Assembly: GCA_029260815.1 (NCBI GenBank)
Contig: JAJDCN010000028.1
Coordinates: forward strand, 1 to 33,302
Length of the DNA stretch: 33,302 nt
Direction: 5' to 3'
From: Planctomycetota bacterium
GTDB lineage: Bacteria; Planctomycetota; B129-G9; JAJDCN01
Shown here piece after piece: positions 13,816 through 33,302 of this stretch. Numbering within the stretch: position 1 is the first letter of the stretch; each line of letters starts with the position of its first letter. The position numbers and the translations under genes were made by a program. The notes under the pieces are model-generated. The model saw only the letters and a list, made by a program, of their open reading frames with translations, had not been told where the DNA came from and searched no databases.

Positions 13816-13884
13816 CGCGTACGCCGCAAGACGTGCGGTCAATATTGGTTGGATTTTTCTGGAGCGGGGGAATCCGGTTTTGCC

Positions 13885-14795: not shown

Positions 14796-17700
14796 CTAAC
14801 CCGGGCCCGGCGCGGGAATTTTAAATTCAGGATTCAGCTCCTGGGCCTTCTGGAAGTTCTCCTCGGCCTTTTTCGCGTCTTCTTCTAATCGATACAGCTC
14901 ACCTAGGCGCGCATAGGCCTTCCAGTCACTCTTGTATCCGGCGCGTGTTGCCCTTTCAAGCACGCGAATGGCCCCGGTCATGTTTCCCTGGCGTTCCCGT
15001 GCGATCGTCAGGTTGATTAGCGGCACGATCCAACCCTCAGACATGATCTGGGAGGCTTTCTGGAAGTTCTTCTCGGCTTCCGCAAGTTTCTCCTCCTGCA
15101 GATAGAGTTTTCCGCTTAGGTTCAGCAAGAAGTGGTTGTTTTGCCAACGGGGCTGCTCCTCGACCCACGCGCGCATTGCATCGGGTGAGTTCGGATGCTT
15201 TTTGTCATAGAGTTGTTCTATCAGACCAAAGATGTCCCCGCGGAGAGGATTGTCCAGAAATGCCAGGCGCGCGACCGAGAGGCTTTTTCCCGGCTCTTTG
15301 GCGTCCCAGTGAAGCCGAGCGATGTAATAGCGGGCATCCGAGCGCAGATTGATCAGTCCTGGATCGGTGCCGCGCTGGGTCAACGCCTCGCCAATTAACT
15401 CGATTGCGGTGTTGAATTGATCTTCCGCGGCCAAGTGTCTGTCCTCTCGAGCCAGGTAACACCGTCCCAAAAGAATGTAGGACTGAATGCTTCCTTTTCC
15501 TTTCTCGTGTATGCCTTCCAGGAGAGAGGCCCCCTTTTCGGACTGCTGGCCGTCCAAATAAGCATTCGCGAGGAGCATTCGATACGCAAAGTGCGCTCCA
15601 CTGTGCTTGGCTGTATCCACCATGTTTTCGAGAAAGGAGATGGCATCCGCATCCGGTTTTTCAGAATACGCGGCAATCAGGTCCAGCACCTCCTTGGATG
15701 CCGGAATGTCCGACGGTCGCAGGGCCACGGATCGCGTGTAGTTTTCGATCGCCTCGCGCCATTGACCCAAGGCGGCGCTGTGCCGCGCCTTGAGCGCCAG
15801 ATTTTCCGGGTCGCCGCTGTTGTGCTCCACCAGCCTGTCGACAAAATCCGTTCGAGCCGCATCGAGATCGGGTCCCCTATAGAGGTGCGCCAAAAGGTCG
15901 TAAACCTTGCGCTTGGCCTGCGCGTTAAAAGGGCTGATTCGGTGTACGGCCCGATAGGTTTCCAGGGCGTCGACAAAGCGTCCAGTCTGTTCTTGAAGTT
16001 GAGCCAGGAACATCGGGTAGGTGGGGCTTTGGGGTGCCAATGCCATCGCACGTTGGATTTCTTTTTCGGCCTCTTCTGTGTTCTTGGCGGAGATTTGCAC
16101 GAGAAACTTGTATCGATGGATTTCGGCTTGACCCTTCTCGTTGTCCTGATTTGCCGCGATGGCCCGATCCAGTGTTTCCAAAGAGGTGGCTCGGGCTTTT
16201 TTTCGATCGGCGGCATGCGCAGCGAAAGCAAAATCCGAGTACTGGCGCCAGGCCAGAAGGTTGGAGGGCTCGTGGGTAACCGCTGCCTCGAAATGCTTGC
16301 TGGCGTCTTCGATATTCTTTTGCGCTCTGTAAGCGCGAGCGAGCTCCAAATGGGCTCGGGTGATCCCTATGCCATTGCTGACGGCACTGTCGAGGGCTTG
16401 TTGGAACAGTTTGATCACGCGGTCCGAATAAGAGCCGTCGATTTCTCGATAAATTCTGGCCCGGAGACTAAAGATTTCCGGCGCCCGCTTGCCGGTGGTG
16501 ACAAGTCCGACTTCGTCGGCCAAGACATTGGCTCGCCGTGGCTTGCCGAGGCGCAGATATGTGTTGGCCAATTGGATGCGTAGCCAGGTACGATCCGCGT
16601 CTGACAGGCTCTGCTTGAGGGCATTTTCACCGGAAGTTTTCGCCTGTGGAAATTGTTCCAAACTAAAGTCGTACTTAAAGCGCAAGAAGTCGACCCGTGT
16701 CTCCAGCCCCGTTGAGCCCACCTCCTCGAGTCGGCTCAGCCGACGCGAACCGCGCTCCAGGTAGTCATCTCGCTCCGACGGAATGGCCGAGATGTTCGCC
16801 GCTCGGTACAGCAGGTCCGCCGCTTGGAACAGCAGCTCCGGACTGTTGGGGTCGGTTTCTAATTTTCGGTCGACCTTGGCCAGCGCTTCGTTCAGATCAG
16901 GTCCTGCATCCTGTTCGATGAGTTGAAGCATTCGGATTGCAATATAGTCGGCGGGGACGCGCTTTAGCAGCTCTTGGTAATATTTTTTTGCATCGTCCGA
17001 CCAACCGAGGCGGTAGGCCTCGCGCGCGGCCTTGCCCAGCGCGGCGAGGCTGTCGGGGTCTTCGGTCCAGGCCTCTTTATATTGCTCGAAAGCTTTCTGG
17101 AATTGGCCTTGGCGTCTGTAATAATCGCCAAGCCGCTCCAGAAAGGGTGACTTCCCACCGTCCGGGGCTTCCCGCCATGCGATTTTCAGGCATTGCTCGG
17201 CGTTGATCACAGCCCCCTCGGGTGTGCTCGAGTCGGGGCGCCGAGAAAGCTCGTAGATCTCCGACAAGACTGTATAGGCTTCCGGTTGCCGCTGCGCGTG
17301 CTTGGCGTCGGACAGAACCCCCTCGACGGATTGTTCCGCCTCCTGGTAGTATCCTTGGACCGCATAGAGTCGGGCGCGTTCAAGATGAAGTCTTGTCACA
17401 TCGAATTTGGTTGAAAGGAACCGGATTCCCACCGTGCAAATCCGGTGTGCCACCGCCTCCGCTTGGTATTCTCTGCAAAGCTCTATTGCTTTGAGAGCGC
17501 CTTGGATGGGATCGTTCTTGTTGTCGGCGTCTTTGAAGTCTCTCGCGCTTTTCGCCAAGCTGGAAAAGATCAAGTCTCTCGCGTGCTTTGCGAGGCGTTC
17601 GGCTTTTGGCGTCAAAGCCTCCAGTCGATTCAACTCGAATTGAATACGGGCTCGCTCAAAGGCATACTTTGAATTGTTAGCAAGGGTTGTCAGGTCCAAC

Positions 17701-18446
17701 AAGACCTGGTTTGCGTTATCAAAGAACCGTTCAGTTGCCCGATAAAGATCGCGCTTTTTGTCCAGGCTGAGGCGATTGTATTGGCTGGAGATCTCCTCGA
17801 TGCTACCTTTCCCCAAGACCATGTACAATTGGACTTGATACCAGTTGGCCTTCTCATCGGTATCTGTTGCTGCTTGGTACGCATCGGAACCTTTTTCAAG
17901 GGTTGTCAGTTCTTCTTTCAGGTTCGCAGAGGCCAATTTGGCCCAGGAGATTGCCTGGTTGTAGAAACTGTTTTTTTCTTCGAGGGATCGAAAGCGTCCT
18001 TCAAAATAGGAGCGGTAATCAAGAAGCAGGGCGCAACGGGCGAGTTTGATTTCGGGGTCGTCTGGATTCCGCTCATCGCAGGTTTTCAGACTTTCCCGCA
18101 TCGTGGTCAACTGTTCCTCAAGGAGTTTGGCGTCCCGCAGGACTTCCGGTTGGACGATCCGGTCCTTGGCGATCTGGTAGCGCAGGTAATGAGACTCCCA
18201 GCCCTCGGGGTTGAGGGTTTCGATTTCTTTGCACAGTTGGAGGACCGCTTCCCGCATTTCTTCTGTGCGCGATCCTGACTGGTCCATGATAGCGTGAGCT
18301 TGAGCGAGCAGGTCCTGCGCCTGCTCCGGGCTCTTGTCGCGAAGCAGGAAGTAATACGTTCCAGCACCGGTCAGCGTCAACAGAACCATCACCAGGGTCA
18401 GTCGCAGCTTCCAACCAAAGAATCGCTTTCTTGCTTGGCGAATCAT
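14796..18446 (-). CDS. Membrane-anchored giant TPR-repeat protein (1216 aa)
   Basis: N-terminal TM (LRLTLVMVLLTLTGAGTYYFLL); many TPR-like helical pairs such as LERLGDYYRRQGQFQKAFEQYKEAWTEDPDSLAAL and LGELYRLEEDAKKAEENFQKAQELNP. Confidence 0.85.
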   Translation of the reverse strand: MIRQARKRFFGWKLRLTLVMVLLTLTGAGTYYFLLRDKSPEQAQDLLAQAHAIMDQSGSRTEEMREAVLQLCKEIETLNPEGWESHYLRYQIAKDRIVQPEVLRDAKLLEEQLTTMRESLKTCDERNPDDPEIKLARCALLLDYRSYFEGRFRSLEEKNSFYNQAISWAKLASANLKEELTTLEKGSDAYQAATDTDEKANWYQVQLYMVLGKGSIEEISSQYNRLSLDKKRDLYRATERFFDNANQVLLDLTTLANNSKYAFERARIQFELNRLEALTPKAERLAKHARDLIFSSLAKSARDFKDADNKNDPIQGALKAIELCREYQAEAVAHRICTVGIRFLSTKFDVTRLHLERARLYAVQGYYQEAEQSVEGVLSDAKHAQRQPEAYTVLSEIYELSRRPDSSTPEGAVINAEQCLKIAWREAPDGGKSPFLERLGDYYRRQGQFQKAFEQYKEAWTEDPDSLAALGKAAREAYRLGWSDDAKKYYQELLKRVPADYIAIRMLQLIEQDAGPDLNEALAKVDRKLETDPNSPELLFQAADLLYRAANISAIPSERDDYLERGSRRLSRLEEVGSTGLETRVDFLRFKYDFSLEQFPQAKTSGENALKQSLSDADRTWLRIQLANTYLRLGKPRRANVLADEVGLVTTGKRAPEIFSLRARIYREIDGSYSDRVIKLFQQALDSAVSNGIGITRAHLELARAYRAQKNIEDASKHFEAAVTHEPSNLLAWRQYSDFAFAAHAADRKKARATSLETLDRAIAANQDNEKGQAEIHRYKFLVQISAKNTEEAEKEIQRAMALAPQSPTYPMFLAQLQEQTGRFVDALETYRAVHRISPFNAQAKRKVYDLLAHLYRGPDLDAARTDFVDRLVEHNSGDPENLALKARHSAALGQWREAIENYTRSVALRPSDIPASKEVLDLIAAYSEKPDADAISFLENMVDTAKHSGAHFAYRMLLANAYLDGQQSEKGASLLEGIHEKGKGSIQSYILLGRCYLAREDRHLAAEDQFNTAIELIGEALTQRGTDPGLINLRSDARYYIARLHWDAKEPGKSLSVARLAFLDNPLRGDIFGLIEQLYDKKHPNSPDAMRAWVEEQPRWQNNHFLLNLSGKLYLQEEKLAEAEKNFQKASQIMSEGWIVPLINLTIARERQGNMTGAIRVLERATRAGYKSDWKAYARLGELYRLEEDAKKAEENFQKAQELNPEFKIPAPGPG

Positions 18447-19240
18447 GAGTCCTCAATCTTCGGTAAATGCTTGGCCATTACGTTTGGGAGGAATGAGCGG
18501 GAAAATTCAACCAGTCGTTCTTTGGCTTCCTCTTCTGTCTCAAACCGATTCTCTTTTCGGAGCGGCCGCAGATAGGTGTCGAGCCGGATCTGCGCCAGAT
18601 AGCCCAGCCGGCCGCCCGTCAGGGTTTTCCAAAAAGTTCCGATCCTTCCAGAGAGGCGATCCCCAATAATCCGATCTCCATTTTCCATCCAATAAACAAC
18701 CAATCGCTTTCTGTGCATCGTCTGGCCGTCGCGGTCGGTTGCCAGTTCGAGAAACAAATAGACCGTTACAGAGATTTTGCCATCCATATAGCCGGGGATC
18801 TCGATTTGCACTCCTTCTTGCTTGCCAAGAAGTTTCGCGCCGCTGCCTTCAAAGCAGAGTTCCGGGTAGTGCAACGCGCCGGTGTTGCTCCCGACAGCGA
18901 AGCTTTCGCTGTAGGCCACGTAGGCGCCCAGGAAGGAGTTTTGTATCTGGCGGTCCTTGTATTGCCGGCTGAAGTAGGAGTCCGCTCCGGCGGCATCAAC
19001 GATCTCTCGAGGGATCGGCATCTCGCGACCAACCCAGCGGTGGTTGTTCTTCGGATTGACGGCCTCTAAGGCTTTCTTGTCCCAATCGGACGGCTCCTTT
19101 TCAGGGACTTTATTGAAAGGGATGGCCAGCTCAAACCGTTTGTGAAGTTTTTGAACTTTTGCGTTGACCACATGGTAGGAAACAATGGCAATAAGAAGGG
19201 CAAGAGCGGCGATGATCAATTTTGGAGAAAAAGCTTTCAT
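18443..19240 (-). CDS. EpsI-like exosortase-associated protein
   Basis: N-terminal TM; HYPELCFEGSGAKLL resembles the conserved EpsI His/Cys motif; directly follows exosortase. ORF opens at 19294; ATG at 19240. Confidence 0.75.
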   Translation of the reverse strand: MKAFSPKLIIAALALLIAIVSYHVVNAKVQKLHKRFELAIPFNKVPEKEPSDWDKKALEAVNPKNNHRWVGREMPIPREIVDAAGADSYFSRQYKDRQIQNSFLGAYVAYSESFAVGSNTGALHYPELCFEGSGAKLLGKQEGVQIEIPGYMDGKISVTVYLFLELATDRDGQTMHRKRLVVYWMENGDRIIGDRLSGRIGTFWKTLTGGRLGYLAQIRLDTYLRPLRKENRFETEEEAKERLVEFSRSFLPNVMAKHLPKIEDS

Positions 19241-20178
19241 CCTGTGGCCTCCCTTTGTTCCTGCAGAGGTTGATCGATCGGGACCGTAATCCAATCGATC
19301 AGACGACTGATGCCCAACAGCAAGAGAAACGCCAAAGCAAAAGTAATCAGCCCCCAGATCTCATGGGATCTTCCACCCGCCATGGAAGGGTCGACCAGGT
19401 CCACGAGCACGCCCGTTGTCGCAACGCGAAAAACATTTAAGAGGATTGCGACTGCGATGGAAAGAAGAAAAATAGTGATGCGAGACCACAGTTCTTTTCG
19501 CAGGACGTAGACCATGACGGCCGCGAGGCAGGTCATCGCCAACAAGGAGCGGATTCCGCTGCAGGCCTGCGCCACCTCCATGGTAAACGGGCGCTGCTCC
19601 TCGAGTGGCAGGTCCTTGTCCTCCGGGTTCTTTACGTTCTTGAGGATCATTTGATTGCCCCGATCCTGCTCGACCGGGATGCCGATGTTGTTAAGTGTCC
19701 GAACCGAACAGTCAGAAGCAAGTAACTGAAGAGGCATTGCCAGCTTGGAGTACATGATGTTCGGGATCGGAACCATGAAGAAAAGGAAGACAATGGGAAA
19801 CAGCACTTTCTTGAGGAATTGTCGGCCGCGAAGCAACAGCACCGAGCCGATCAAGATCGGAATGATAGCCAGCCGACCCGGGTAATCGTACATCCCCGGC
19901 AGTGAGGCGATGCACAGCAACAGTCCCGCCAAGAGGATCGGTAGTCCGATCCAGTGACCGTTGGGCCGGATATGGGCCAGTTCGGATCGTTTCCACCAAA
20001 GCAGGCCGATCGCGATGGGGATGACCAGGAACGCATGCGTGTAATCCGGGTCGTTTTCCCACTTTTGGATCATCCCGCCTATCTGGGGCGCGTAGAACAG
20101 GGTCGCCAGGGCCAGGACGACCCATAGGTCCCAATTCTTGTGGCTCGCCACTTCTACTTTTGACTCATTCGTTGCCAA
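19237..20178 (-). CDS. Exosortase (transpeptidase-like integral membrane protein)
   Basis: Polytopic; catalytic triad motifs QACSGIRSL (Cys), LNVFRVA (Arg), RSHEIWG (His). TTG start with GGAG upstream. Confidence 0.88.
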   Translation of the reverse strand: MATNESKVEVASHKNWDLWVVLALATLFYAPQIGGMIQKWENDPDYTHAFLVIPIAIGLLWWKRSELAHIRPNGHWIGLPILLAGLLLCIASLPGMYDYPGRLAIIPILIGSVLLLRGRQFLKKVLFPIVFLFFMVPIPNIMYSKLAMPLQLLASDCSVRTLNNIGIPVEQDRGNQMILKNVKNPEDKDLPLEEQRPFTMEVAQACSGIRSLLAMTCLAAVMVYVLRKELWSRITIFLLSIAVAILLNVFRVATTGVLVDLVDPSMAGGRSHEIWGLITFALAFLLLLGISRLIDWITVPIDQPLQEQREATG

Positions 20179-20737
20179 AAAGGGTCTCCTCTGCGATTTC
20201 GCAGACGATGTGGCCGATCGTGATATGGCACTCTTGGATCCGCGCGCTCTCTAAGGAGTCGATGCAGATACACTGGTCGACAAGGGGTTTGAGCTTTCCG
20301 CCCTCCCTTCCCGTCATGCCGAGAGTCGCCGCGCCCCGCTTGCGCGCGGCGGCGATGCCGCCGAGCACGTTCTCCGAGTTGCCGCTGGTGCTGATGCCGA
20401 TGACAACATCCCCTTCTTTCACAAAGGCCTCGATCTGGCGCGAGAAAATCTGGTCGTAGCCGAAATCGTTGCCCACCGCGGTCAAAACGGAGGTGTCGGT
20501 GGTCAACGCCAGGGCGGGCACCGGGGCCCGGTTGCGCATGAAGCGACCGACCAGTTCCGCGGCCAGGTGCTGCGCGTCGGCCGCGGAACCGCCGTTGCCC
20601 ATCAAGTAGATACAGTGGTCCCGCACCAAAGCGTCGCAGATCGTCTTGGCCGCTGCTTCGATTTGGGCCACGTGATTGCCCAACAGGTCGTGCCGCAGTC
20701 GGATGCTCTCTTCCAGTGCCTTTTGAACGGCGCCCAT
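20165..20737 (-). CDS. gmhA: D-sedoheptulose-7-phosphate isomerase
   Basis: SIS domain: GNGGSAADAQHLAAEL, ISTSGNSENV, ARIQECHITIGH. Confidence 0.88.
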   Translation of the reverse strand: MGAVQKALEESIRLRHDLLGNHVAQIEAAAKTICDALVRDHCIYLMGNGGSAADAQHLAAELVGRFMRNRAPVPALALTTDTSVLTAVGNDFGYDQIFSRQIEAFVKEGDVVIGISTSGNSENVLGGIAAARKRGAATLGMTGREGGKLKPLVDQCICIDSLESARIQECHITIGHIVCEIAEETLFGNE

Positions 20738-20740
20738 AAC

Positions 20741-22240
20741 TTACTTCTTGTCCTTGATCTTGTTCACAATGTTGGTTGTGGATATTCCTTCCACCAGCGG
20801 TGCCCGTCGGACGATGCCGCCGTAGGTCTCGACGAACGCTTGGCCGACGACTTCGCTTTTCTGGTAGTCGGCGCCCTTCACCAGTATATCAGGTCGGACT
20901 CGTTTTACCACCGGTAGGACGCTGGTCTGGTCGAAAATCACGATGTAGTCCACGTCCTCCAGGGCTGCCAGAATCTGCGCCCGTTCCAATTGCTGGAGAA
21001 TCGGTCGCCCCGGGCCTTTGAGCCGGGCGATCGAGGCGTCGGAATTCAGACCTACGACGAGCAGGTCTCCCTGCTTGCGGGCATATTTAAGCAGGCCGAT
21101 GTGGCCTACGTGCAAGACGTCGAAGCAGCCGTTGGTAAAGACGATCTTCTGTTTTCGAGACCGACGCGCATTCAATAATGGAACCAGGTCGTCAAGCGTC
21201 TTCGTCTTGGCCGTGATCTGATGGCTCAAGTCTTCCAGGCGGTGGATGATTTCCGTGCGGCCGACCGGCGCGGTTCCGACCTTGGTGACCGCGGCGCCCG
21301 CCGCCACGTTGGCGATTTGGAGTGCGCAGCCCAGCGCGTGGCCACCGGCCAGCACAAAGCCGATGGCTGCCAACGCAGTGTCGCCGGCGCCCGTCACGTC
21401 AAAGGTCTCCTGCTCCTGGGTCTCGAACGCCTGCATCCGTTTGCCCTGTTGGATCAATTGCATCCCGTCCTTGCCAAGAGTGACCACGATGGCATCGGCT
21501 TGAAGCTGCTTGAGCAGCTTCTTACCCGCTGTTTCCATCCTGCGCTCTTCCTGCGTGTCCGGCCGCTCAGCTTCGGAAAGGGGCTTGCCGGTCTGTATAA
21601 GGATCGCTTGCCGAAATTCGTTTAGGTTTGGTTTGATGACCGTGGCCCCGCGGTAGATGCGGAAATCCTCGGCCTTTGGATCCACCACGACCGGAATGCC
21701 CACTGATCGGCCGGCCGCGACAGCGATCTTCATCAGGTCCGGTGTGATCAGGCCTTTAGCGTAATCGGAAACCAGGATCACATCTGCTCGTTTGGCTACG
21801 CGCTTTAGATGCTGTGCAACCCGGGTTTGGATGTCGTCCTGAAGCGGGCGACTGTCTTCCCGGTCGATGCGCAGAAGGTGTTGGTGCTGCGCGATGATGC
21901 GGCTCTTGCGCGTTGTCGGCCGGGTATTGGTTGTGACCAGTCCGGCGGTGGAAATTGCCTGTTCCTGCAAGAGTCTACGGAGCGTCTGCCCCGCTTCGTC
22001 TCGGCCCACCACGCCCACGGCGGTAACCTTGGCGCCCATAGCGGCCAGGTTGGAGCATACGTTCCCCGCGCCGCCGACCCGTTCCTCTTCGTCCGTGGCT
22101 TTGACCACCAGGACCGGGGCCTCGGGAGAGATCCGTCCGGAGGTGCCCCAGATGTACCGGTCGAGCATGAAGTCGCCAACGACCAGTACCCGAGGCGGTT
22201 TGGCTGGATTGAGGATTTCGATGAGTTCCCGATTGGGCAT
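20741..22240 (-). CDS. hldE: Bifunctional heptose-7-phosphate kinase / heptose-1-phosphate adenylyltransferase
   Basis: PfkB-type kinase domain (GGAGNVCSNLAAMGA, DVTGAGDT) plus nucleotidyltransferase domain (FTNGCFDVLHVGHIGLL). ORF opens at 22393; MPNRELIEIL at 22240. Confidence 0.92.
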   Translation of the reverse strand: MPNRELIEILNPAKPPRVLVVGDFMLDRYIWGTSGRISPEAPVLVVKATDEEERVGGAGNVCSNLAAMGAKVTAVGVVGRDEAGQTLRRLLQEQAISTAGLVTTNTRPTTRKSRIIAQHQHLLRIDREDSRPLQDDIQTRVAQHLKRVAKRADVILVSDYAKGLITPDLMKIAVAAGRSVGIPVVVDPKAEDFRIYRGATVIKPNLNEFRQAILIQTGKPLSEAERPDTQEERRMETAGKKLLKQLQADAIVVTLGKDGMQLIQQGKRMQAFETQEQETFDVTGAGDTALAAIGFVLAGGHALGCALQIANVAAGAAVTKVGTAPVGRTEIIHRLEDLSHQITAKTKTLDDLVPLLNARRSRKQKIVFTNGCFDVLHVGHIGLLKYARKQGDLLVVGLNSDASIARLKGPGRPILQQLERAQILAALEDVDYIVIFDQTSVLPVVKRVRPDILVKGADYQKSEVVGQAFVETYGGIVRRAPLVEGISTTNIVNKIKDKK

Positions 22241-22257
22241 GGTGTTTCCCAAACGAA

Positions 22258-23289
22258 TCAGCCCATTACACGCTGAAGCATTTCCTGGTTTTCCGAAACC
22301 CAGTCGTACAACTGGCGAACGCCCTTTTCGACAGTGGTCTTTGGCTTCCAGCCGAAATCTTTTCGGGCCCTGTCGATGTTGCAGACAAAGCACGGTTGGT
22401 CGCCGGGCCGCCAGTCGTCAAACTGGTGCTTCAGCTTTTTGCCCGTAAATTTTTCCAGGAACGCGATCAGCTCCAACAGGGACATCTGGTTTTTTGGTCC
22501 GCCGCCGACGTTGTAGATACGGCCGCTGATCTTCTTGATGTTCTTGATCGCCAATTCGTAAGCGTCCACCAAGTCTTCGATGAACAAAACATCACGGACC
22601 TGCATGCCGTCTCCGTAGACAGTAACCCGCTTACCGAGCGCTGCAGCGATCGTAAACCAAGCCACCCAGCCCTGGTCTTCGATCCCGAACTGGCGGTAGC
22701 CGTAAATGCAGGACTGACGAAAGACGACCGTGGGGATCTCGTAGATCCGCGCGTAATCGCGGACGTACTGGTCCGCGGCCCCTTTCGAGCAGCCGTAGGG
22801 CGAATGGAAGTCGAGAACCTCCTTTTCGTCGATCCCTTTAGGAAGATCGCGGTACTGGTAGCGCTTCTGCCGTTTTACGACCTTGATGTGTTCCATGCCC
22901 CCGTATACTTTGTTGGTCGAGGCGAAGATCACCGCCGGCTTGCGCCCGCTCTCGCGGATCGCTTCCAAGACGTTGAAGGTGCCCAGAGCGTTGATCTCGA
23001 AATCCTCGCGCGGATCGGTCACCGAGGTGGTCACCGCGACTTGGGCCGCCAAGTGAATGACGGCGTCGTACTTCTGGCGGGCGAAGACGCGTTTGACTTC
23101 TTTGTGCTCGCGAATGTCCGCCTTGAACAGGTCGCACCGCCCGACCTTACGTTTGAGCCACTCAATATTTTCTTTGGTGCCTCTCCGGCTCAGGTTGTCC
23201 AGGATGGTGACCTTGTGTCGGTTGCGGATAAATCGCGCCGCTGTATTCGCACCCACGAACCCGGCGCCCCCAATAATCAATACCTTCAT
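22258..23289 (-). CDS. NAD-dependent epimerase/dehydratase, resembling CDP-paratose/tyvelose 2-epimerases
   Basis: GGAGFVGAN Rossmann motif; YGCSKGAADQYVRDYARIY (YxxxK); VVFRQSCIYGYRQFGIEDQGWVAWF. Confidence 0.85.
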   Translation of the reverse strand: MKVLIIGGAGFVGANTAARFIRNRHKVTILDNLSRRGTKENIEWLKRKVGRCDLFKADIREHKEVKRVFARQKYDAVIHLAAQVAVTTSVTDPREDFEINALGTFNVLEAIRESGRKPAVIFASTNKVYGGMEHIKVVKRQKRYQYRDLPKGIDEKEVLDFHSPYGCSKGAADQYVRDYARIYEIPTVVFRQSCIYGYRQFGIEDQGWVAWFTIAAALGKRVTVYGDGMQVRDVLFIEDLVDAYELAIKNIKKISGRIYNVGGGPKNQMSLLELIAFLEKFTGKKLKHQFDDWRPGDQPCFVCNIDRARKDFGWKPKTTVEKGVRQLYDWVSENQEMLQRVMG

Positions 23290-23372: not shown

Positions 23373-24491
23373 TCAGTTGCGCAGGATTTCGTTGTACACT
23401 TTCAACGTCTTTTGTGCTGTCTGTCTCCAGGTGAATTGTTTGCACCGCTCAAATCCTTTTTCCCGTAGTGTGTCCGAAACTGTCGGGTCTTCCAGTACCC
23501 GGGTCATGGCATCGCACAAAAATTCCGGGTTTCGGGCATCCACCAGCAACGCTGCATCGCCCACCACTTCCGGAAGGCAGGCCGCGTCGGAGCAGATGAC
23601 CGGAGCCCCGCAGGCCATGGCCTCTACCGGCGGGATGCCAAACCCTTCGAACAGGGAGGGAAAGACAAATGCCTCAGCAGCCGCCAGGATCGGCGGCAGG
23701 TCGTCATTGGCCACGTGTCCTTGAAAAACGACGTGGTCGTCCAGTCCGTGGGCTGCCACGCGTGCGCGAATTTCGGCTTCGCCGTTCCAGTCCCGCCCGA
23801 CAAAAACCAGTTTGTGCGGACAGTCGAGCTTCTGTCGAAGATGGGCAAAGGCTTCGACCAGGGCGACGTGGTTTTTCGACGGATGCTCCAGCCGAGCGAC
23901 GTAGACGAAGTAGTGTTCCGGCAGGCCGTGTCGATCCCGGGCAATGGTTTGCGCCCATTCAGGGTCGACCGGGGCGAAGCGATCTGCGTTGTATCCCAGA
24001 TGGATCACCCGGATCTTGGCCGCGTCGATTCCGATCAGGCGGATGATTTCTTGTTTGGAAAAATCCGAGTCGGTCAAGATTCCGTCCAAGCGTCGCGCCA
24101 GAACGGGAATGACTTTTTTCAGGTACAGCATACGGGAGGAACTGTATTTTTCCGAAATGACGAAGCCGCCCAAGTCGTGGATTGTGCCCACCGTTCGGCA
24201 GCCCTTGAGGAAGGTCAGCCGTTGGTGACTCGACAGGTGTAGCAGATCCAGCCGAGCCCGCCGAGCGGCGGCCGGTAGGGCGGTTTGATGCCAGATCAGG
24301 CTGGGGATCGGGCGCGCAAGCGCGCCGGGCGCGGGATGGACTGAGTCATAAGTATCGGCAAAGGGTTCCATGTGGTCTCGGTTGACAAACAGGTGCATTT
24401 CGTGTTCGGTTCCGATCTGTCGGAGTTGGCGCATTAGGTTGATCTCGTACTGAGCGATCCCTGATTTGCCGCCATCTGCATGTGAGGCCAT
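23373..24491 (-). CDS. GT4-family glycosyltransferase
   Basis: GKSGIAQYEINL, VARLEHPSKNH, PSLFEGFGIPPVEAMACGAPVI. ATG at 24491; a TTG at 24506 is an alternative start. Confidence 0.88.
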   Translation of the reverse strand: MASHADGGKSGIAQYEINLMRQLRQIGTEHEMHLFVNRDHMEPFADTYDSVHPAPGALARPIPSLIWHQTALPAAARRARLDLLHLSSHQRLTFLKGCRTVGTIHDLGGFVISEKYSSSRMLYLKKVIPVLARRLDGILTDSDFSKQEIIRLIGIDAAKIRVIHLGYNADRFAPVDPEWAQTIARDRHGLPEHYFVYVARLEHPSKNHVALVEAFAHLRQKLDCPHKLVFVGRDWNGEAEIRARVAAHGLDDHVVFQGHVANDDLPPILAAAEAFVFPSLFEGFGIPPVEAMACGAPVICSDAACLPEVVGDAALLVDARNPEFLCDAMTRVLEDPTVSDTLREKGFERCKQFTWRQTAQKTLKVYNEILRN

Positions 24492-24507
24492 GAATCCGAT
24501 TCGCAAT

Positions 24508-25266
24508 CTACCGCTCCCCGGCCTTTCGGTGTGCGCGCAACACCCGTGTGATGAACAGAGGGTTTCCAATGATGTACCGCCGCCATAGCCGGCGCGGCTC
24601 GGCGGCCAACCGATAGAGCCATTCCCAGCCCCGGTCGAGCATCCACTGCGGGGCACGGGGCAGCGCTCCACTGGTAAAGTCGAACAGGGCTCCCACTGCG
24701 AAACTGATGCCCACGTTCAGTCGCTCGCGGTTTTCGTGGATCCATTGCTCCTGTTTGGGCATGCCCATGGCCACGAGCAGCACATCGGTGCCGGCATCGT
24801 TGATTTGTCGGATGACTTGGTCCTCCAGCTTCGGGTCGTCGTCGATGTAGCCGTGGTGCGTGCCGGCGATCTTCAATCCTGGGTATTTTTTGCACCAGAT
24901 TTCGGCCGCTTTTTCGGGAACGCCTTCCTGGCTGCCCAGTAGAAAAAACGAATAGCCTTCCGAACGGGTCTGATCGCACAACATGGGGATGAAATCGGTC
25001 CCGCAATTGTTTTCCGGGAACGGCTGGCCCTGTCGCCGCGCGGCCCAACCGACACCGGTACCGTCGTTGAGCAGGAGATCGGCCTGGTTGAGCAGCTCGC
25101 GATAACTCGGATCCGAGCACGCCAGGTTGGCGCAGTGAGCATTGATAAAATACGCGATCGCGGAGCGACGCTCGGCGACCAGAGGCTTCACCCGCTCCAG
25201 GGCCTCGGCACAGGTCAACTGAGGGATCTGAATGCCCAGGATATCTGTCGTATTATTCGGGACCAT
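24508..25266 (-). CDS. WecG/TagA/CpsF (GT26) glycosyltransferase
   Basis: FINAHCANLACSDPSYRELLNQADLLLNDGTGVGWAAR, VAMGMPKQEQWIHENR, GALFDFTSGALPRAPQWM. Confidence 0.9.
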   Translation of the reverse strand: MVPNNTTDILGIQIPQLTCAEALERVKPLVAERRSAIAYFINAHCANLACSDPSYRELLNQADLLLNDGTGVGWAARRQGQPFPENNCGTDFIPMLCDQTRSEGYSFFLLGSQEGVPEKAAEIWCKKYPGLKIAGTHHGYIDDDPKLEDQVIRQINDAGTDVLLVAMGMPKQEQWIHENRERLNVGISFAVGALFDFTSGALPRAPQWMLDRGWEWLYRLAAEPRRLWRRYIIGNPLFITRVLRAHRKAGER

Positions 25267-25304
25267 CTGCTCCGTCGCGGGCTCCACGATTTCTCCGACC
25301 TTTC

Positions 25305-26492
25305 TTACGTGAGATACTTCTTGTACAGTTCCTGATAACGCCGCGCGGCATCGATCCAATCGCCGCGTACGCCCAACAAGGGATTGATTTCCTTTTTCCA
25401 CTCCCAGTCGGCTGGCCGATAAAGGAGCGCCGGAAAGGCCGCCAGCATCCGATCGCGCGGGTGTCGCAGAAACCACCATCCGCGGTCGCCCAACGCGTCC
25501 AGGGCGCCGAACTCGCGGAAATTGATCAGAAAGTCCCGTACCCGTTTGAGCGGGCCCTCCAGGGTGCCAAAACCTTCGGCCGTTACCTGGTGATATTGTG
25601 TCTGCCAGGTTAGTTCCTCGACGCCCAACCGCTGTTTTTCGAACCACAGGTGGATCGGTTCCAGAACCGAGAGTACGCTCATAAGCCAGTCGGTGTAATC
25701 CCGCTCCATGTACTTGGCGTAGTTCGGCTCGAAACGAAATTCAGCAGCCTCCTTGTAGATCGCCTTGAGTAGCTCGGCCCGTGGGACTTCCTGTATGTCC
25801 AGGTTGATGATCCGCTCCAGCTTGGTCGCGTAGCTCGTGTCGTACCAGCCCTTGGCGATCAACACCGCATCGCCGTAGCCGATCGTCGCCTTGAAAATGT
25901 GGCGGATGAACTTGCGACGCTCGTCCTCCCGGTAGTTCTGGCCCACCTCCAATGCCATTCGGTTTTCCAGCAGGCAGTTGCCTCGGTTGCGCAACAGCGC
26001 GGCGCCTTCACTGAGGGGCACGTCAGTTTTGTCGTACTCCGGCATTCGTGCGAGAATATTCAAATCGCCCCATAGCACATGGTGGCCGAAGCGCAGGTCG
26101 TGATTGATCAGAATGTGCACGGCGTTGTCGAGAAACGCAACGGGCCGAATGTTGACATCAACCCCGAGGTCGACGATTTTTGCCAAGGTTCTACCCGCGG
26201 TGGTTGCCCGATGAAAATACGCCTTACGGCGGCTCAGGGGCATTTTCTCAATTAATACCAGCAGGTCGTAATTGTTGTGCGGTTTGGGTCGGCCGTGTTC
26301 CATCAGGGCTCCGCCCTCGCCGCGACCGTACCCGCCCAACAGGACGATGGCCTGAAGGCTGTCGCCGGAAAATTCGCCACGCAGGTGCTCGACGATCTTT
26401 TCCATATCCGAGGCGATTCGCTGCTCGACCTCGGGCTTGCCACGCAGGGTGTAGCGTTCAGGGGTCGTCTGTTGTTGCTGCAGCTCGGTCAA
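25305..26492 (-). CDS. Predicted nucleotidyltransferase-fold (pol-beta-like) protein in polysaccharide cluster
   Basis: LLGGYGRGEGGALM followed by NNYDLLVLIEKM and LGVDVNIRPV. Confidence 0.6.
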   Translation of the reverse strand: MTELQQQQTTPERYTLRGKPEVEQRIASDMEKIVEHLRGEFSGDSLQAIVLLGGYGRGEGGALMEHGRPKPHNNYDLLVLIEKMPLSRRKAYFHRATTAGRTLAKIVDLGVDVNIRPVAFLDNAVHILINHDLRFGHHVLWGDLNILARMPEYDKTDVPLSEGAALLRNRGNCLLENRMALEVGQNYREDERRKFIRHIFKATIGYGDAVLIAKGWYDTSYATKLERIINLDIQEVPRAELLKAIYKEAAEFRFEPNYAKYMERDYTDWLMSVLSVLEPIHLWFEKQRLGVEELTWQTQYHQVTAEGFGTLEGPLKRVRDFLINFREFGALDALGDRGWWFLRHPRDRMLAAFPALLYRPADWEWKKEINPLLGVRGDWIDAARRYQELYKKYLT

Positions 26493-27663
26493 CGGTGCCG
26501 CTCGCCTCCAAAAGTAAAGACTCTATTTTATCAAGATAATCGTTGAAGCGAAATCGTTCTTCCAGCATTTCCCGGCCCCGCTCCCCCAGCCGCCGACACA
26601 GGGCGACATCGCCCAAGAGGGCATCGACCCGCTGGGCCATCGTCTTGACGTCTTGTTCGCCCAAGAGGTAGCCGTTTTCACCGTCTTCCAGCCAATCGGG
26701 GATCCCACCCACACGGAAGGCCACGACCGGGCGTTGGTTGCCCATGGCCTCGGAACCGACCAGGTTGAAGGACTCTGGGGCTCGGGAGGTCACTGCGACC
26801 ACACGGGCGCGGCGGATCTGTTCGGCCAATTGTTCGCGGTTCAGCCATCCGATGAATTCCACCCGGTCTTGCAAACCCAATTGGCGGCACAGTCCTTGAA
26901 ATTTCTGGTCTTGCCGGCCGGTGCCGACGATCGCCGCAGTGAAGTCGGTCTGCAGCCGGGCAAGCATTTTGAGGAACAGGTCGACTCCCTTGGAACGGAT
27001 CTGTGTGCCGATAAACAGGACGTGCCGACTGTTGGGGTCGATCGGTTCCGGTTGATCAGGGATGTCGCGCAGGGCCAGGGGAACGATCGCAATCTGGCTT
27101 TCAGAAAATCCGTTGGCAATCAGGACGTCGCGCATGTAGCGGCTGGATACGACGATTCGTACAAAGATGCGGTTGTGGCGCATCTGTTTGAAGTGTTGAA
27201 GGTAGCTCTTGTGTCCGATGGGAAAGGTCCGGTCGCGCCGCTCGAGGAACCCGAAACAAGGGAGGATGCACCAGGGACCCAGAGGGCGATGACAGGTCTT
27301 GCCGCTGATGGGGAAATACTTGTGTCGTCGCAGGCAGACGGGAGCCACGTCGTGCATCATTCGGACCGAGGGGACGGCGGTCATCAGGGGGATGAGGGGG
27401 GTAAGATTGTCCACGCGATGAAAATAGGTCACGTCGGGTTTGGAGTCTGATAAAATTCGGCTGAGCGTTTTATGGACAGGCTCTTCGAGCGGGTAGGCGT
27501 GATCGAAGGGACGCCGAAAATCTTTCAGTCCCTGCTTGCACTCTCGGGCGTACAGCAGGTCGCTGGTATGTCCGCGGTCGGAGAGGCCTTGGGCCACGTC
27601 GTGGATGTTCTTTTCAGCCCCGCCGGCGAATCCGATCTCGTCGTTGACGTGCAGCACTCTCAT
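26458..27663 (-). CDS. GT4-family glycosyltransferase
   Basis: MRVLHVNDEIGFAGGAEKNIHDVAQGL; IGTQIRSKGVDLFL; Ex7E motif APESFNLVGSEAM. ORF opens at 27717; ATG at 27663. Confidence 0.88.
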   Translation of the reverse strand: MRVLHVNDEIGFAGGAEKNIHDVAQGLSDRGHTSDLLYARECKQGLKDFRRPFDHAYPLEEPVHKTLSRILSDSKPDVTYFHRVDNLTPLIPLMTAVPSVRMMHDVAPVCLRRHKYFPISGKTCHRPLGPWCILPCFGFLERRDRTFPIGHKSYLQHFKQMRHNRIFVRIVVSSRYMRDVLIANGFSESQIAIVPLALRDIPDQPEPIDPNSRHVLFIGTQIRSKGVDLFLKMLARLQTDFTAAIVGTGRQDQKFQGLCRQLGLQDRVEFIGWLNREQLAEQIRRARVVAVTSRAPESFNLVGSEAMGNQRPVVAFRVGGIPDWLEDGENGYLLGEQDVKTMAQRVDALLGDVALCRRLGERGREMLEERFRFNDYLDKIESLLLEASGTVDRAAATTDDP

Positions 27664-27670
27664 GGTCGTC

Positions 27671-28492
27671 TCATCCGTCGGTAGTCGCAGGACACAAGTG
27701 GGCCGCCTGTCCGGCAAACACCGACTCTTTGGTCGCTAGCCGGTCGCACAGCTTTTCGAAGGTCTCGAAGCGATCCGCCAGGTACATGCACAGAGGATGG
27801 GCCAAAATCGTGGCGACACCTCCGGCGGCGTCAATTCGCTCGATCTGTTGGGTCGCTTGATCCAACCACTCTGCGGGCGTGTAGGACTCGCTGGGGAAAT
27901 CTCCGGGTGTGTCTTGTGCCCGTTGCGCGACTCGTTCGGGGGTGCGGTGCGCGTGGTAGAGGTGCTCATGGTCGGGAACGACGTTGATCGGCAGGCTGAC
28001 GACGCCCTCGGGCATGGGTTCCGGCCCGGTTTTGGTGGAGGCCACTTCGTCACTGAGCACCCGGACGCCTGCTTGGGCCAGGAGGCCCGGCGTGTTGTCA
28101 TCACGGATGTACGCATGGTCGCGCCAAGCGACGGGTCGGGTCCCGGTGATGTGCTCTGCCAGGTCCAGGGTTTTGCGGATCTCCCGACGCTGCCAGGGTG
28201 CGGGCCCGCAGTGGGTACCGAACACAAAACCAAAGCCGCGGTAGAGCAAATCAGGACTGAAGGCGGTCCATGTATGCCCGCCGATTTCCACGTGGGGCTG
28301 TTGCGCGATATCTCGAAGTATTTCAGGTTTTTCCAGGAAGGCCTTTCCGGTGACGAACATGGTGATTTTCAGGTCGTGCCGGGCGGCGATTTGGACGTAG
28401 GTACGTGCCGCTTCCACCTCACCGCAGTCCGCGTACTTCTGGTCATTCGTACGCAGTGTGGCGTGGTGGACATCGCCGGTCAAACAAATCAT
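27671..28492 (-). CDS. Polysaccharide deacetylase (NodB)-like protein
   Basis: MICLTGDVHHATL, VTGKAFLEKPEILRDIAQQPHVEIGGHTW, AWRDHAYIRDD, ILAHPLCMYL. ATG at 28492 overlaps the preceding stop. Confidence 0.75.
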   Translation of the reverse strand: MICLTGDVHHATLRTNDQKYADCGEVEAARTYVQIAARHDLKITMFVTGKAFLEKPEILRDIAQQPHVEIGGHTWTAFSPDLLYRGFGFVFGTHCGPAPWQRREIRKTLDLAEHITGTRPVAWRDHAYIRDDNTPGLLAQAGVRVLSDEVASTKTGPEPMPEGVVSLPINVVPDHEHLYHAHRTPERVAQRAQDTPGDFPSESYTPAEWLDQATQQIERIDAAGGVATILAHPLCMYLADRFETFEKLCDRLATKESVFAGQAAHLCPATTDG

Positions 28493-29727
28493 ACGCGTCC
28501 AGCCAACTTCCGGACCCGGTAGAGCCATTTCTCGCCGTTTTTCTTGCTGAGCAGCCAGTCGCGAACGTAGTTGCGAAGCATCCGGTCGACGTCGAATCCC
28601 TTCATGCCGCCGATGAGCGCCAGCATGCTGCTGTCGGAGACTTGGCGGCGGCCCAACAGGCAGGTGCGACAATCCGTTTCGGGCTTCTCGGAGTTCACCT
28701 GCTTGCGAAAGGCTTGGTATTTTTTGGAGTTCCAGGCTTCCATGAAATCCTGTTTGCGCAGGTCGCCCATGATCTGGGTGGAGGAGCCGCAAGGGGTGAC
28801 GACCCCGCGTTCGTCGATGACCAGCGTCGTCCAGGGCCAGAAGCACTTGAACGTCTTAATTTGGCAACCGCCGCTGGAGCTCTCGTCGAAATCCTCTGGC
28901 GGCTCGACGGTCATTGCCGGAATCTCGAACGGCTCTGGGAAGTCGACCGGCTGGCCCAGCTCGCGCGCCTTCTCGATAGCCTGGGCGATACAGTCGTTGG
29001 TGAGCGACTTGTGGTAGACGAGGGATTGATACCTCTGGTGCTCATAGTGCGGTCGCAGGTGGTGGGCGGTGACGCGCTCCACGCCCAACTCTTTTCCCTT
29101 TTCCACCAGCAGCGGCAGCTCGCGGATATTGCTCTCGCAAAGGGTAGCGGAGAAGTGGACCTGGGTGTCGTTGCGTCCCATGGCTTTGCTGTAGGCCAGG
29201 GTATTGCGCACGAAGTCATAGAGCCGCTCCACGCTCGCCCCACGGATCATTCGGAAGGTTTCGTCGGTCGCGGCGTCGATGGACAAGCGGATGATCACAC
29301 CCCGTTCGGCCAACTGGCGACAACGGTCGTCGTTGTACAGGGTGCCGTTGGTCTGGAGTGTGAGCTCAAAGTCGTACTTGCACATCCGCCCGAAGTAATA
29401 ATCCCACTTGCGCGCGAACATCTGCTCGGCGTCGTTGCCTCCGCCCAAGGTGACGCGGGAGACGTAGGGCAACAGGTCCCTGTCGATTTTATCGAAGACT
29501 TCATCCGAGATGTCCGCGGCGCTCAAAGGAATGCGTCGGCCCTTTCGGATTCCGCAATGGGCGCAATCCAGGTTGCAGCGGCCGGTGAGGGACAGCACCG
29601 CGTGGGTCGGCCGAGACTCCAAGACCGGGGCCTCGCGCTTGATCTCCTCGATATTCAGTCGCTTGTTTCCAGCGATTCGTTGTTTTCGTTCTGCCCGTTC
29701 CTGATCGGTAATCGGTGCAAGTGCCAT
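28489..29727 (-). CDS. Radical SAM protein with C-terminal SPASM-like cysteines
   Basis: SLTGRCNLDCAHCGIRKG (CxxxCxxC); C-terminal CQIKTFKCFWPWTTLVIDERGVVTPCG and ETDCRTCLLG. Confidence 0.88.
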   Translation of the reverse strand: MALAPITDQERAERKQRIAGNKRLNIEEIKREAPVLESRPTHAVLSLTGRCNLDCAHCGIRKGRRIPLSAADISDEVFDKIDRDLLPYVSRVTLGGGNDAEQMFARKWDYYFGRMCKYDFELTLQTNGTLYNDDRCRQLAERGVIIRLSIDAATDETFRMIRGASVERLYDFVRNTLAYSKAMGRNDTQVHFSATLCESNIRELPLLVEKGKELGVERVTAHHLRPHYEHQRYQSLVYHKSLTNDCIAQAIEKARELGQPVDFPEPFEIPAMTVEPPEDFDESSSGGCQIKTFKCFWPWTTLVIDERGVVTPCGSSTQIMGDLRKQDFMEAWNSKKYQAFRKQVNSEKPETDCRTCLLGRRQVSDSSMLALIGGMKGFDVDRMLRNYVRDWLLSKKNGEKWLYRVRKLAGRV

Positions 29728-29735
29728 TTTTGCCT

Positions 29736-30998
29736 CTATCTATCTTCGTTTACAACGCCGCCTTTGGCGGCGATGACTTCGTTGCATATGTCGGCCAGTT
29801 GATCGGCCACCACGGCCCAGTCGAATCGCCTTCGGGCCGTTTCGGTCCCCGCGTGGCGAATTCGGTCATACAGTTCACGATCCTCCAGCAGGCGGGCGAC
29901 TTGTTTGCCCAGTCCGTCGGCGTCGTTCGTTTCAAACAACAGCCCGTCGGTGCCGTCCTCGATGATCCACGGCAGGCCGCCGGCATTGCTGGCGGCCACC
30001 GGTTTCCCGGCGCTCATGGCCTCCAGGACCACGGTTGCGCCGCATTCCTGGATCGAGGACAGGATGAACACCTCGCAGGAAGCGTAGGCGTTCAGCAGGT
30101 CCGAGCTGTCCGGCTCCAAGCCCTCGATGATGAGGACCTTGCTCTCCAGGCCCTGCTTGGCGATGAGCTCCTTGAGCTCCTCGTAGTAGCTGCGGACGGT
30201 CACCGAGCCGATAAGGACCAGGACTAAATCGTCCCAGCGTTGCAGAAGCTGTGGCAGGGCCGATACAATCAACTTCTGATTTTTTTGCGTGTCGATCCTC
30301 CCGATATTCAAGAGGATCCGCTTGTCTTCTAAACCATACTTCTTCTTAAACGCCTCCGGATGGCCGGTGGCAAAATATTCGGTGTCCACGCAGCAGGGCA
30401 CGTAGTAAACCCGCTTATGCGGGTAGGCCTGCTTGGCATATTCGTAGTCTTGTCCGCCGGCGCAGACCAATGCGTCGGCATTTCCCATCAGCTTTCGGCT
30501 GCCAAACAAGGCGCCGAACGGCTTGCCCCAGTCCAAGGTGCCTTTGAGGGGTTCCTGGAACTTGGCCAACTCCGCGGCGGGCACCTTAGCCGGAAACCCG
30601 CCTTGCATATTGACGATATAGGGAATCCCCTTCCACTTGCAGGCGGTCGCGACCATTGCTCCGAGCCTGCCCATGGCGAACAGCTGTACGGCATCGACCG
30701 ACGGGTCTTTCAACAAGGCGAAAAACATCGAAAACGAGAGCGAGTTTCCACCTTTACGATCGAATGCCGCCCATCGGTCCCCACTCAAGCCCAGGTAGGG
30801 GTAGAAATATGAAAAACGATGGACCTCGAGTCCGGCGATGTTTTCATGCACCTGGTCGGACATGCTGTTGGTGGTAAACACCTTATTGCGAAAGCCGCGG
30901 TTTTCCAATTTGCGGCTGGCATTAACCACGAAGGTCTCGATACCACCCCATTCCTGGGGGATAAACCGTCTGACAACATGGGTTAGGTTTATTCCCAT
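29736..30998 (-). CDS. GT4-family glycosyltransferase
   Basis: FIPQEWGGIETFVVNASRKL, LLNIGRIDTQKNQKLIV, SIQECGATVVLEAMSAGKPVAAS. Confidence 0.9.
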   Translation of the reverse strand: MGINLTHVVRRFIPQEWGGIETFVVNASRKLENRGFRNKVFTTNSMSDQVHENIAGLEVHRFSYFYPYLGLSGDRWAAFDRKGGNSLSFSMFFALLKDPSVDAVQLFAMGRLGAMVATACKWKGIPYIVNMQGGFPAKVPAAELAKFQEPLKGTLDWGKPFGALFGSRKLMGNADALVCAGGQDYEYAKQAYPHKRVYYVPCCVDTEYFATGHPEAFKKKYGLEDKRILLNIGRIDTQKNQKLIVSALPQLLQRWDDLVLVLIGSVTVRSYYEELKELIAKQGLESKVLIIEGLEPDSSDLLNAYASCEVFILSSIQECGATVVLEAMSAGKPVAASNAGGLPWIIEDGTDGLLFETNDADGLGKQVARLLEDRELYDRIRHAGTETARRRFDWAVVADQLADICNEVIAAKGGVVNEDR

Positions 30999-31014: not shown

Positions 31015-32577
31015 TCATTTTTTGACAAGAATTCCAAGTGTCAACCGGGCCAACGGGGAGCCGGATCGGGCCAGCAGCCGGGCGTCCTCCGCTTCGAGGA
31101 GCCGAAGCTGGCGCATGGCGAACACCATGAGCCCCCCCGCTGCGACCACCAGAGCCACAAGCCCATATTCAGTATCGACATAAGAACGCAATGGGTACAA
31201 CAAAAAGGCACTACTGGAGGCCAGAACGCACTTGCCCAGGAACCCTATGGGGATGTCCAATCCACCAATGGCCCGGCTGGCGATCCATAGGGTGACCCCG
31301 CTGCCGACCAGGACCGTGCCGAATTTGGAGATCATTGCCCCTTCCACACCCATGCTGGGAATTAGTAGGAAGTTCAGTGCCAGGATCGAGATGATCTGAC
31401 AAATGTTGATGGGCACCATGACCATCCACTTTTCCATTGTTACAAGTGCCACTGTGATCGGGATGAAAATCGTGCCATAAACGTGATAGACAGCAAAGAT
31501 TCGGATCAATGAGCCTGCGTGGGCATATTCGGAGCCGACCAGAAGAATCAAGGCCTTGTCGCCCAAGAGCACGCCCATCGTCGCGATGGGGACCAGGAGG
31601 GTGAATAACAGTTTGTAAAAGTAGCGAATGCCCTGTCGTAGTTTCTGCGGGTCCTTCACGTAGAAATGGGAAAAGCTCGCAACCGCCAACGTGTAGATCG
31701 GCGGGACGAATATTCCCATGGCAAAGTACGACAACCCGTAGGCCAGACCGTAATTGGCCGTGTCCTTGAATCCGGAGATGCCCAGGAAGGTGAAGAGCAA
31801 CTCGCCGGGCAAGCTGATGATGACGAACTGGAGATTGGACACGAGCGTCGGAACGATCAGTCGACTCAGCCGCGACGCTTGTATACCAACCGGGGCTTCG
31901 GATTCCCCAGATCCCGGTTCCTCGAACTCCTCGCCCTTCCCATGCAGAAGGAACCGGTACTGGCGTCCAAGCATGAAGGCCAGTTGGATCGCCACGCTAA
32001 TCGCCTGCGCCCCGAACACTCCCCGCAAGCCCCAGCCCCAGTCGAGGAACAGAAACGTCAGGCCGACCCAGATCGGACAAGAAATTAGATTGGCGATGCT
32101 GACGATGAAGGTGTCGAAGCGGGACACGCAAATGTTGAACAGAATTGTGCGGTACAGCCACAACGCCACCAGGCTTATCAGGACCCAGAAGTAGGGGGAC
32201 AGCTCCACCGCCTTGGAGCTCTCGTAGTAGGACCCGCCCCAGACCAGCAAGGCAGCCTCGACAACCAACGCGATCGCCAGCAGCCCGAGAGCCCCCCATA
32301 GCAGCCGCCGTACAGCCTTCGGGTTGCCACGGTGGATCAGTTCCGGAAGGAAGCGGGGGATGACTTTCTCCAGGCCCAGCCCGAACATGAACGGCGTGGC
32401 CAACACAACCCATTTAAGCAATTCGTAGATCGCGTAGGTCTCGGCGTCTTTTTCATAATAATTTGGAATCTTGGCGGCCAGAATTACGCCGGATAAAGCA
32501 ATGACAACGCGCGCCAGGATCGTCCATGGCGCTGCCTGGGAAAACTTCTGGATAGTCGTGTCGGCGGGGTCTTCCAT
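31015..32577 (-). CDS. Wzx-like polysaccharide flippase (MATE/MOP superfamily)
   Basis: Many TM helices over about 500 aa, ordered as in O-antigen flippases (AAPWTILARVVIALSGVILAAKI...); located among glycosyltransferases. Confidence 0.8.
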   Translation of the reverse strand: MEDPADTTIQKFSQAAPWTILARVVIALSGVILAAKIPNYYEKDAETYAIYELLKWVVLATPFMFGLGLEKVIPRFLPELIHRGNPKAVRRLLWGALGLLAIALVVEAALLVWGGSYYESSKAVELSPYFWVLISLVALWLYRTILFNICVSRFDTFIVSIANLISCPIWVGLTFLFLDWGWGLRGVFGAQAISVAIQLAFMLGRQYRFLLHGKGEEFEEPGSGESEAPVGIQASRLSRLIVPTLVSNLQFVIISLPGELLFTFLGISGFKDTANYGLAYGLSYFAMGIFVPPIYTLAVASFSHFYVKDPQKLRQGIRYFYKLLFTLLVPIATMGVLLGDKALILLVGSEYAHAGSLIRIFAVYHVYGTIFIPITVALVTMEKWMVMVPINICQIISILALNFLLIPSMGVEGAMISKFGTVLVGSGVTLWIASRAIGGLDIPIGFLGKCVLASSSAFLLYPLRSYVDTEYGLVALVVAAGGLMVFAMRQLRLLEAEDARLLARSGSPLARLTLGILVKK

Positions 32578-32588
32578 GGGCCCTCGCG

Positions 32589-33302
32589 TCAGGCCTGTTT
32601 TCGGAAAAGAAGGTTGATTCCGAATCCGCGTAGAACCAATACCGGCCACAGCACCGCTCGCATCGCCAGCCACGTTAGTTTGTCGATGACCGGGATCTTT
32701 AGTAGGGTGCGCATCAGCCCGATGCGGGAAAACTTCAGGCGCGTGCTTTCCCGTGGAAGGTACATCTCGGCGCTCAGCCCCGCTGACCTGGCGGCCCCGC
32801 TCCAGGCGAAGACCGAGTAAATATGCTCGTTGGCGCCCGCCGCGAGAGCCTCTTCCATCACTTCGCCCTTAAAGATTTTTTTGTAGATTCCACCCACCGG
32901 TTCGTTGGCCAGGGCCAGTACGCCACCGGGTTTGAGCAGCTTGGCGAAACTGCGAAACGATTTGGGCAGATCCGACACGTGGTGCACCGCTGCGTTGGCG
33001 AAGATCCCGTCAAAGGTGGCCGGCGCGAACGGTGGATCCGACAGATCGCCCAGGACCCGCTCAAAGTGGATGCCTTCCGCTTGGTGGTACACGTCTCTAC
33101 AGCCCAGCCCCGTGTATCGCTCCGGTGCGATATCGAGGGCCACGCAGTCGTATCCACGTCGGGTCATCTCCCGCGTGGTCCAGCAGGTGCCGGTACCCAG
33201 GTCCAGGATGCGAGACCCCTTCGGTAGATTCGCACGCTCCAAGATGTCGCGGAAATTCATTCCGTTGTACTTCCAATGGTTTGGCATCTTCGGGTGGTAG
33301 CC
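32589..33302 (-). CDS. Class I SAM-dependent methyltransferase, 5' end possibly beyond the window
   Basis: RILDLGTGTCWTTREMTRRGYDCVALDIAPERY; frame remains open to the window edge (GYHPK upstream of the M at 33287). Confidence 0.8.
   Translation of the reverse strand, partial: GYHPKMPNHWKYNGMNFRDILERANLPKGSRILDLGTGTCWTTREMTRRGYDCVALDIAPERYTGLGCRDVYHQAEGIHFERVLGDLSDPPFAPATFDGIFANAAVHHVSDLPKSFRSFAKLLKPGGVLALANEPVGGIYKKIFKGEVMEEALAAGANEHIYSVFAWSGAARSAGLSAEMYLPRESTRLKFSRIGLMRTLLKIPVIDKLTWLAMRAVLWPVLVLRGFGINLLFRKQA

Follow-up and report, generated by a model that had tools for sequence, protein, structure and literature searches.

Exosortases, which sort PEP-CTERM proteins to the cell surface, are found together with EpsI proteins (TIGR02602 / TIGR02914, PF09721 / PF11984), in some cases as a single fused protein (XrtD and XrtW, for example). 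It is not settled how an exosortase hands proteins over to their final, probably glycan-linked, surface site, and its known partners are few. The closest described TPR partner is PrsT (TIGR02917), a large TPR protein tied to the XrtA/PEP-CTERM system and to exopolysaccharide genes, which carries a lipoprotein signal and has PrsK and PrsR as partners (Haft et al. 2006, PMC1569441). Of 13 cases, only 3 have the genes for PrsK, PrsR and PrsT near or adjoining that for EpsH (Haft et al. 2006, PMC1569441). In Aquincola, prsT is required for floc formation, and the cloned gene complements the defect (PMC9850573). Long envelope TPR superhelices also occur within glycan operons, in PgaA, BcsC, PelB and AlgK, which are outer-membrane associated and mostly carry a barrel. 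In the PNAG, alginate, cellulose and Pel systems, TPR scaffolds are binding platforms for polymer and modifying enzymes, and the TPR domain of PgaA binds both the polymer and its modifying enzyme (PMC9384988).

The window, a stretch of 33,302 nucleotides from a planctomycete draft genome, encodes an exosortase-EpsI pair that is joined by a third member, the gene for a giant TPR protein (Table 1). These are the last genes of a glycan-assembly run of about 15 genes on the minus strand; a convergent response-regulator gene (13849-14727) faces the run, 68 bp past the TPR stop. Purine-rich, ribosome-binding-like stretches lie just upstream of each start (GGGAGG for EpsI, GAGG for the TPR gene and AGGAG for the exosortase TTG). 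The TTG start of the exosortase (20178) is located 14 nt within the end of the gmhA-like gene, so that the chain of coupled genes is longer than the preliminary description had it. Four-nucleotide gene overlaps are frequent in bacterial operons, and the two ATGA overlaps are for that reason unremarkable by themselves; the remarkable part is the recurrence of the gene order. A promoter scan of the stretch gave no sigma-70-like site, and terminator-like sites are not above chance.

Table 1 Features of the exosortase-EpsI-TPR locus and the adjoining glycan-assembly genes.
Feature	Position	Strand	Remarks
Giant TPR protein	14796..18446	-	1216 aa; anchored by an N-terminal TM segment; TPR solenoid predicted to be periplasmic
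ATGA overlap, EpsI TGA / TPR ATG	18443..18446	-	sequence
EpsI / DUF3485 partner protein	18443..19240	-	265 aa; single N-terminal TM segment
ATGA overlap, exosortase TGA / EpsI ATG	19237..19240	-	sequence
Exosortase (EpsH/Xrt family)	19237..20178	-	313 aa; TTG start
GmhA-like sedoheptulose-7-phosphate isomerase (SIS domain)	20165..20737	-	PF13580 over cut-off; TIGR00441 187.5 bits, PRK13936 199.1 (both under cut-off)
HldE-like bifunctional heptose kinase/adenylyltransferase	20741..22393	-	TIGR02198, TIGR02199 over cut-off
NAD-dependent sugar epimerase/dehydratase	22258..23289	-	PF16363, PF01370
GT4-type glycosyltransferase	23373..24671	-	PF00534
WecG/TagA/CpsF glycosyltransferase	24508..25647	-	PF03808; TIGR00696 over cut-off
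GT4-type glycosyltransferase	26458..27717	-	PF00534
Polysaccharide deacetylase-domain protein	27671..28846	-	PF01522 34.7 bits
Radical SAM/SPASM protein	28489..29727	-	PF04055, PF13186
GT4-type glycosyltransferase	29736..30998	-	PF00534
Polytopic membrane protein, ~11 TM segments	31015..32673	-	Wzx-flippase-like by topology (hydropathy) only; no Pfam match

The exosortase scores 212.7 bits against PF09721 (cut-off 25.7; 7.4e-63) and 152.7 bits against TIGR02602 (cut-off 105.55). In an alignment of 100 exosortases of the phylum, Cys206, Arg251 and His272 are kept in 98%, 100% and 98% of sequences, and Asn248, which is also present, falls in the same range of 98-100%. None of the named Xrt subtype models reaches its cut-off for this protein, the best being XrtA (175.4 against 208), and a PDB sequence search returned no match. 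Ahead of the catalytic Cys, residues 187-194 form a short insertion, DKDLPLEE, which is missing from 99% of the aligned exosortases. EpsI scores 61.3 bits against PF11984 (cut-off 26.1; 1.3e-16) and, at 39.0 bits, lies slightly under the TIGR02914 cut-off of 42.8. The window exosortase is the single one found in the 3.53-Mb draft genome, in which 39 PEP-CTERM matches to TIGR02595 lie above cut-off. All eight tails that were read are canonical, with a V/IPEPGTLxLLG...RKRR pattern (for example VPEPGTLALMGLGFVGAGILRKRRRR). The window shares with known exosortase-EpsI pairs the catalytic residues, the adjacency of EpsI and the genomic PEP-CTERM substrates.

The TPR protein matches PF07719 with 101.6 bits, and its TPRs are scattered from residue 356 to residue 1207 of 1216. 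A TM segment spans approximately residues 16-34, with a net charge of +6 before and -1 after it; from this pattern the TPR part is predicted to be periplasmic. No lipobox was found in the N-terminus. The AlphaFold model, based on 22 aligned sequences, is all helix with a mean pLDDT of 69; residues 420-1000 are mostly at 70-95, while 176-420 are poor. A C-terminal barrel is absent, and the model of residues 1-1200 contains no strand, which rules out an export porin of the PgaA/BcsC/PelB type. Foldseek comparison of the model with the PDB gave generic helical-repeat scaffolds only, with TM-scores of 0.13-0.26 on the query. LapB/YciM (NF008757) resembles the window protein in having an N-terminal TM helix followed by TPRs, and its TPR part is cytoplasmic. 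However, the window protein scores 51 against the LapB cut-off of 363, and the charges flanking its helix predict a TPR part outside the cytoplasm, making a LapB-like cytoplasmic protein unlikely. The preliminary description had reported three ORFs at these positions, tightly coupled by two ATGA overlaps, and had called them an exosortase with Cys/Arg/His motifs, an EpsI-like protein and a membrane-anchored 1216-aa TPR protein lacking a lipobox; the overlaps, the coupling and all three identities are borne out by the data above.

Searches with the TPR protein in relatives and on the contigs of its own genome yielded generic TPR cross-matches only. Because the divergence of the repeats defeats protein searches, linkage to exosortases was assessed through gene order. 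A TPR ORF was counted as linked if it had at least 700 aa and at least three TPR matches and lay on the same strand, at most 6 kb downstream of the exosortase; ORFs were called with a simple in-house routine, and TPR and EpsI were scored with equally simple in-house profiles. The loci comprised the 20 first exosortase regions of relatives, the window and 80 further regions drawn from a search of 392 genomes of the phylum, 177 of which carry an exosortase match. Giant TPR genes beside EpsI were first noted in the set of 20. Exosortase loci are best matches, draft contigs shorten some of them, and 93 had enough sequence. The threshold was fixed after the first 20 loci had been seen, and the 80 later loci replicate the linkage.

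A giant TPR gene is linked to the exosortase on the same strand at 51 of the 93 loci; the 80 later regions contribute 40 of these. At 34 of the 51 it lies within 150 nt of the EpsI gene or of a fused exosortase-EpsI gene; elsewhere it is usually found 2-4 kb further along on the same strand. The linkage is not universal, as about 45% of the exosortase loci have no linked giant TPR gene. With the same profile and thresholds, such a gene occurs in 1 of 40 random 12.8-kb regions from the same genomes (Fisher p ~1e-9 for exosortase loci against random regions). Among polysaccharide-export (PF02563) loci, it occurs in none of 20 from exosortase-negative genomes, inspected over up to 20 kb, and in one of 20 that lie far from an exosortase in exosortase-positive genomes, where the ORF starts with a non-protein-like stretch. 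The controls together thus give 2/80, and the preliminary description's idea of a TPR component that accompanies exosortases survives this comparison clearly. All 51 linked proteins have an N-terminal TM segment, 43 show an N-in/C-out charge bias and one has a lipobox. The exception (L150:7159-11727) carries a lipobox-like LGGC after a hydrophobic stretch, indicating PrsT-like anchoring in one lineage. At four further loci (L076, L081, L151, L164) a giant TPR gene lies near the exosortase on the opposite strand, and these are excluded from the count. In the open-licence papers searched, we found no description of an anchored TPR partner of exosortases or of a phylum-wide linkage.

On a FastTree phylogeny of the 100 exosortases, the linked state requires 14 changes, compared with 33.6 for shuffled labels, and none of 500 shuffles was as low. 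It is present in several deep clades and under 19 family labels. The trio is retained throughout certain clades, among them a supported one in which 17 of 17 members carry it, and some of these clades have exosortase and EpsI fused. It is missing from others, notably one in which the exosortase lies about 2.4 kb from EpsI. The window exosortase forms a long branch of uncertain placement; in its class-mates L070 and L075, a TPR gene comes after an exosortase-EpsI fusion. Single-ORF fusions with a giant TPR gene directly after them are found in several clades (L070, L075, L072, L100, L136, L154, L156, L157, L160 and L163). L086 and L087, each the third exosortase of its genome (G005 and G036), form their own long-branched pair and have no EpsI or giant TPR gene close by.

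The phylum-wide linkage suggests that the exosortase machine has a third working part that has been overlooked. On balance we think it probable, with considerable reserve, that exosortase, EpsI and the TPR protein are one working module of the PEP-CTERM sorting system within a glycan-assembly operon. In such a module the exosortase, a transpeptidase-like protease of the Cys/His/Arg type that is integral to the inner membrane, would cut the PEP-CTERM tails of exported proteins, with help from EpsI on the periplasmic side. The giant TPR protein would be held in the same membrane by its one N-terminal helix, with its long superhelix reaching into the periplasm as an adaptor that brings exosortase and EpsI together with freshly exported PEP-CTERM proteins, with the glycan destined for them, or with both. 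It would work like PrsT, with a helix in place of a lipid as its tether to the inner membrane, and the gene overlaps may help to keep the three products in step. The three proteins may touch one another, and the TPR part may bind substrate or glycan; by analogy with prsT in Aquincola and with the TPR domain of PgaA, a scaffold role appears plausible. A wider proposal, which we put forward tentatively and with less confidence than the module itself, is that planctomycete exosortases use a third core component not described before, a giant TPR platform tethered to the inner membrane, whose gene directly follows that for EpsI. This platform would present PEP-CTERM proteins and/or the glycan acceptor to the exosortase, have another anchor and other partners than PrsT, and be ancestral in many lineages. 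The recurrence of this unit of three genes, in which exosortase and EpsI are at times a single protein, singles out a concrete candidate for the adaptor that is missing.

Alternatively, the TPR protein may serve polysaccharide export or polymer processing, as the TPR parts of PgaA, BcsC, PelB and AlgK do, and stand beside the exosortase only because exosortases sit in exopolysaccharide clusters. The setting suits such a role, since the trio closes a long glycan run whose other products include glycosyltransferases, a protein with a deacetylase domain and one resembling a flippase, and TPR scaffolds of comparable systems bind polymer together with its modifying enzymes. We nevertheless consider it unlikely. 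The 40 PF02563 control loci give no support to a plain polysaccharide-cluster effect: they are nearly empty (0/20 and 1/20) compared with 51/93, so the association is with exosortases and not with polysaccharide loci generally. In addition, the window protein has a predicted inner-membrane helix and no barrel, unlike the outer-membrane-associated scaffolds.

That the TPR protein is a diverged PrsT of the same family, its lipid anchor swapped for a TM helix, seems less probable still. The window protein has PrsT as its best NCBIfam match, and so do all of the 12 further TPR proteins scanned, which are linked to or near an exosortase; three of the 12 (L069, L089 and L134) pass the PrsT cut-off of 312.2 with 360-555 bits. 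However, these also pass cut-offs of unrelated TPR families (MamA, Tgl, PilW and SctY in the case of L134), so that the PrsT score is not specific among TPR-rich proteins and the boundary of the family is blurred. A C-terminal NNLA...LDTLG stretch, which resembles the end of PrsT, recurs among the linked proteins (a strict pattern finds it in 14 of 51, inspection by eye in more); it is absent from the window protein. The latter scores 106.9 bits against TIGR02917, through internal TPR stretches only, and PrsK (TIGR02916) is above cut-off in none of 99 genomes of the phylum, the window genome included. PrsT membership of the window protein is rejected on score, on anchor (a TM helix and no lipobox) and on partner (no PrsK), although both share co-occurrence with exosortases; direct linkage to EpsI further sets the planctomycete proteins apart. 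We read the window protein as PrsT-like yet not PrsT by the defining tests, a differently anchored scaffold of the exosortase-EpsI machine.

The preliminary description had suggested that the TPR protein may be a divergent or new accessory component that scaffolds sorting and polysaccharide export. Divergent it is, even among the linked proteins: its aligned identity to the others is approximately 15-18%, and when the N-terminal 300 residues are clustered, the linked proteins form one large group and one class-mate pair, and the window protein stands alone. With sequences so diverged and repeats that can cross-match, this clustering does not demonstrate one ancestry, or orthology of the window protein. 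Its novelty is weakened by the linked proteins that pass the PrsT cut-off. Finally, although 82 stretches of this TPR-rich genome match the PrsT model, so that a TPR neighbour at this locus is more easily had by chance, and 4-nt overlaps are common in bacteria, a chance passenger gene with overlaps that reflect genome compaction alone is highly improbable and largely refuted at the phylum level by the same order at 51/93 loci under 19 family labels, with the same anchor type, against 2/80 controls.

Elsewhere in the window genome, a cluster of several large TPR-rich ORFs (G000:C187:9830-18973) comprises paralogues, one of which scores 357.8 bits against the PrsT model, above its cut-off. The PSCyt2 family, which is expanded in planctomycetes, occurs in many copies in relatives (57 in one genome), and the sampled genomes are assigned to Planctomycetota on this basis; it has no match in the window genome or its class-mates. 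On the plus strand of the window, a fused SecDF (9775-12888) precedes a LysM protein and a response regulator, with no relation to the exosortase module. Within the glycan run, positions 25305-26492 on the minus strand encode a 395-aa protein lacking a Pfam match, in which a GGYGRGEG / NNYDLLVL stretch is suggestive of a nucleotidyltransferase fold.
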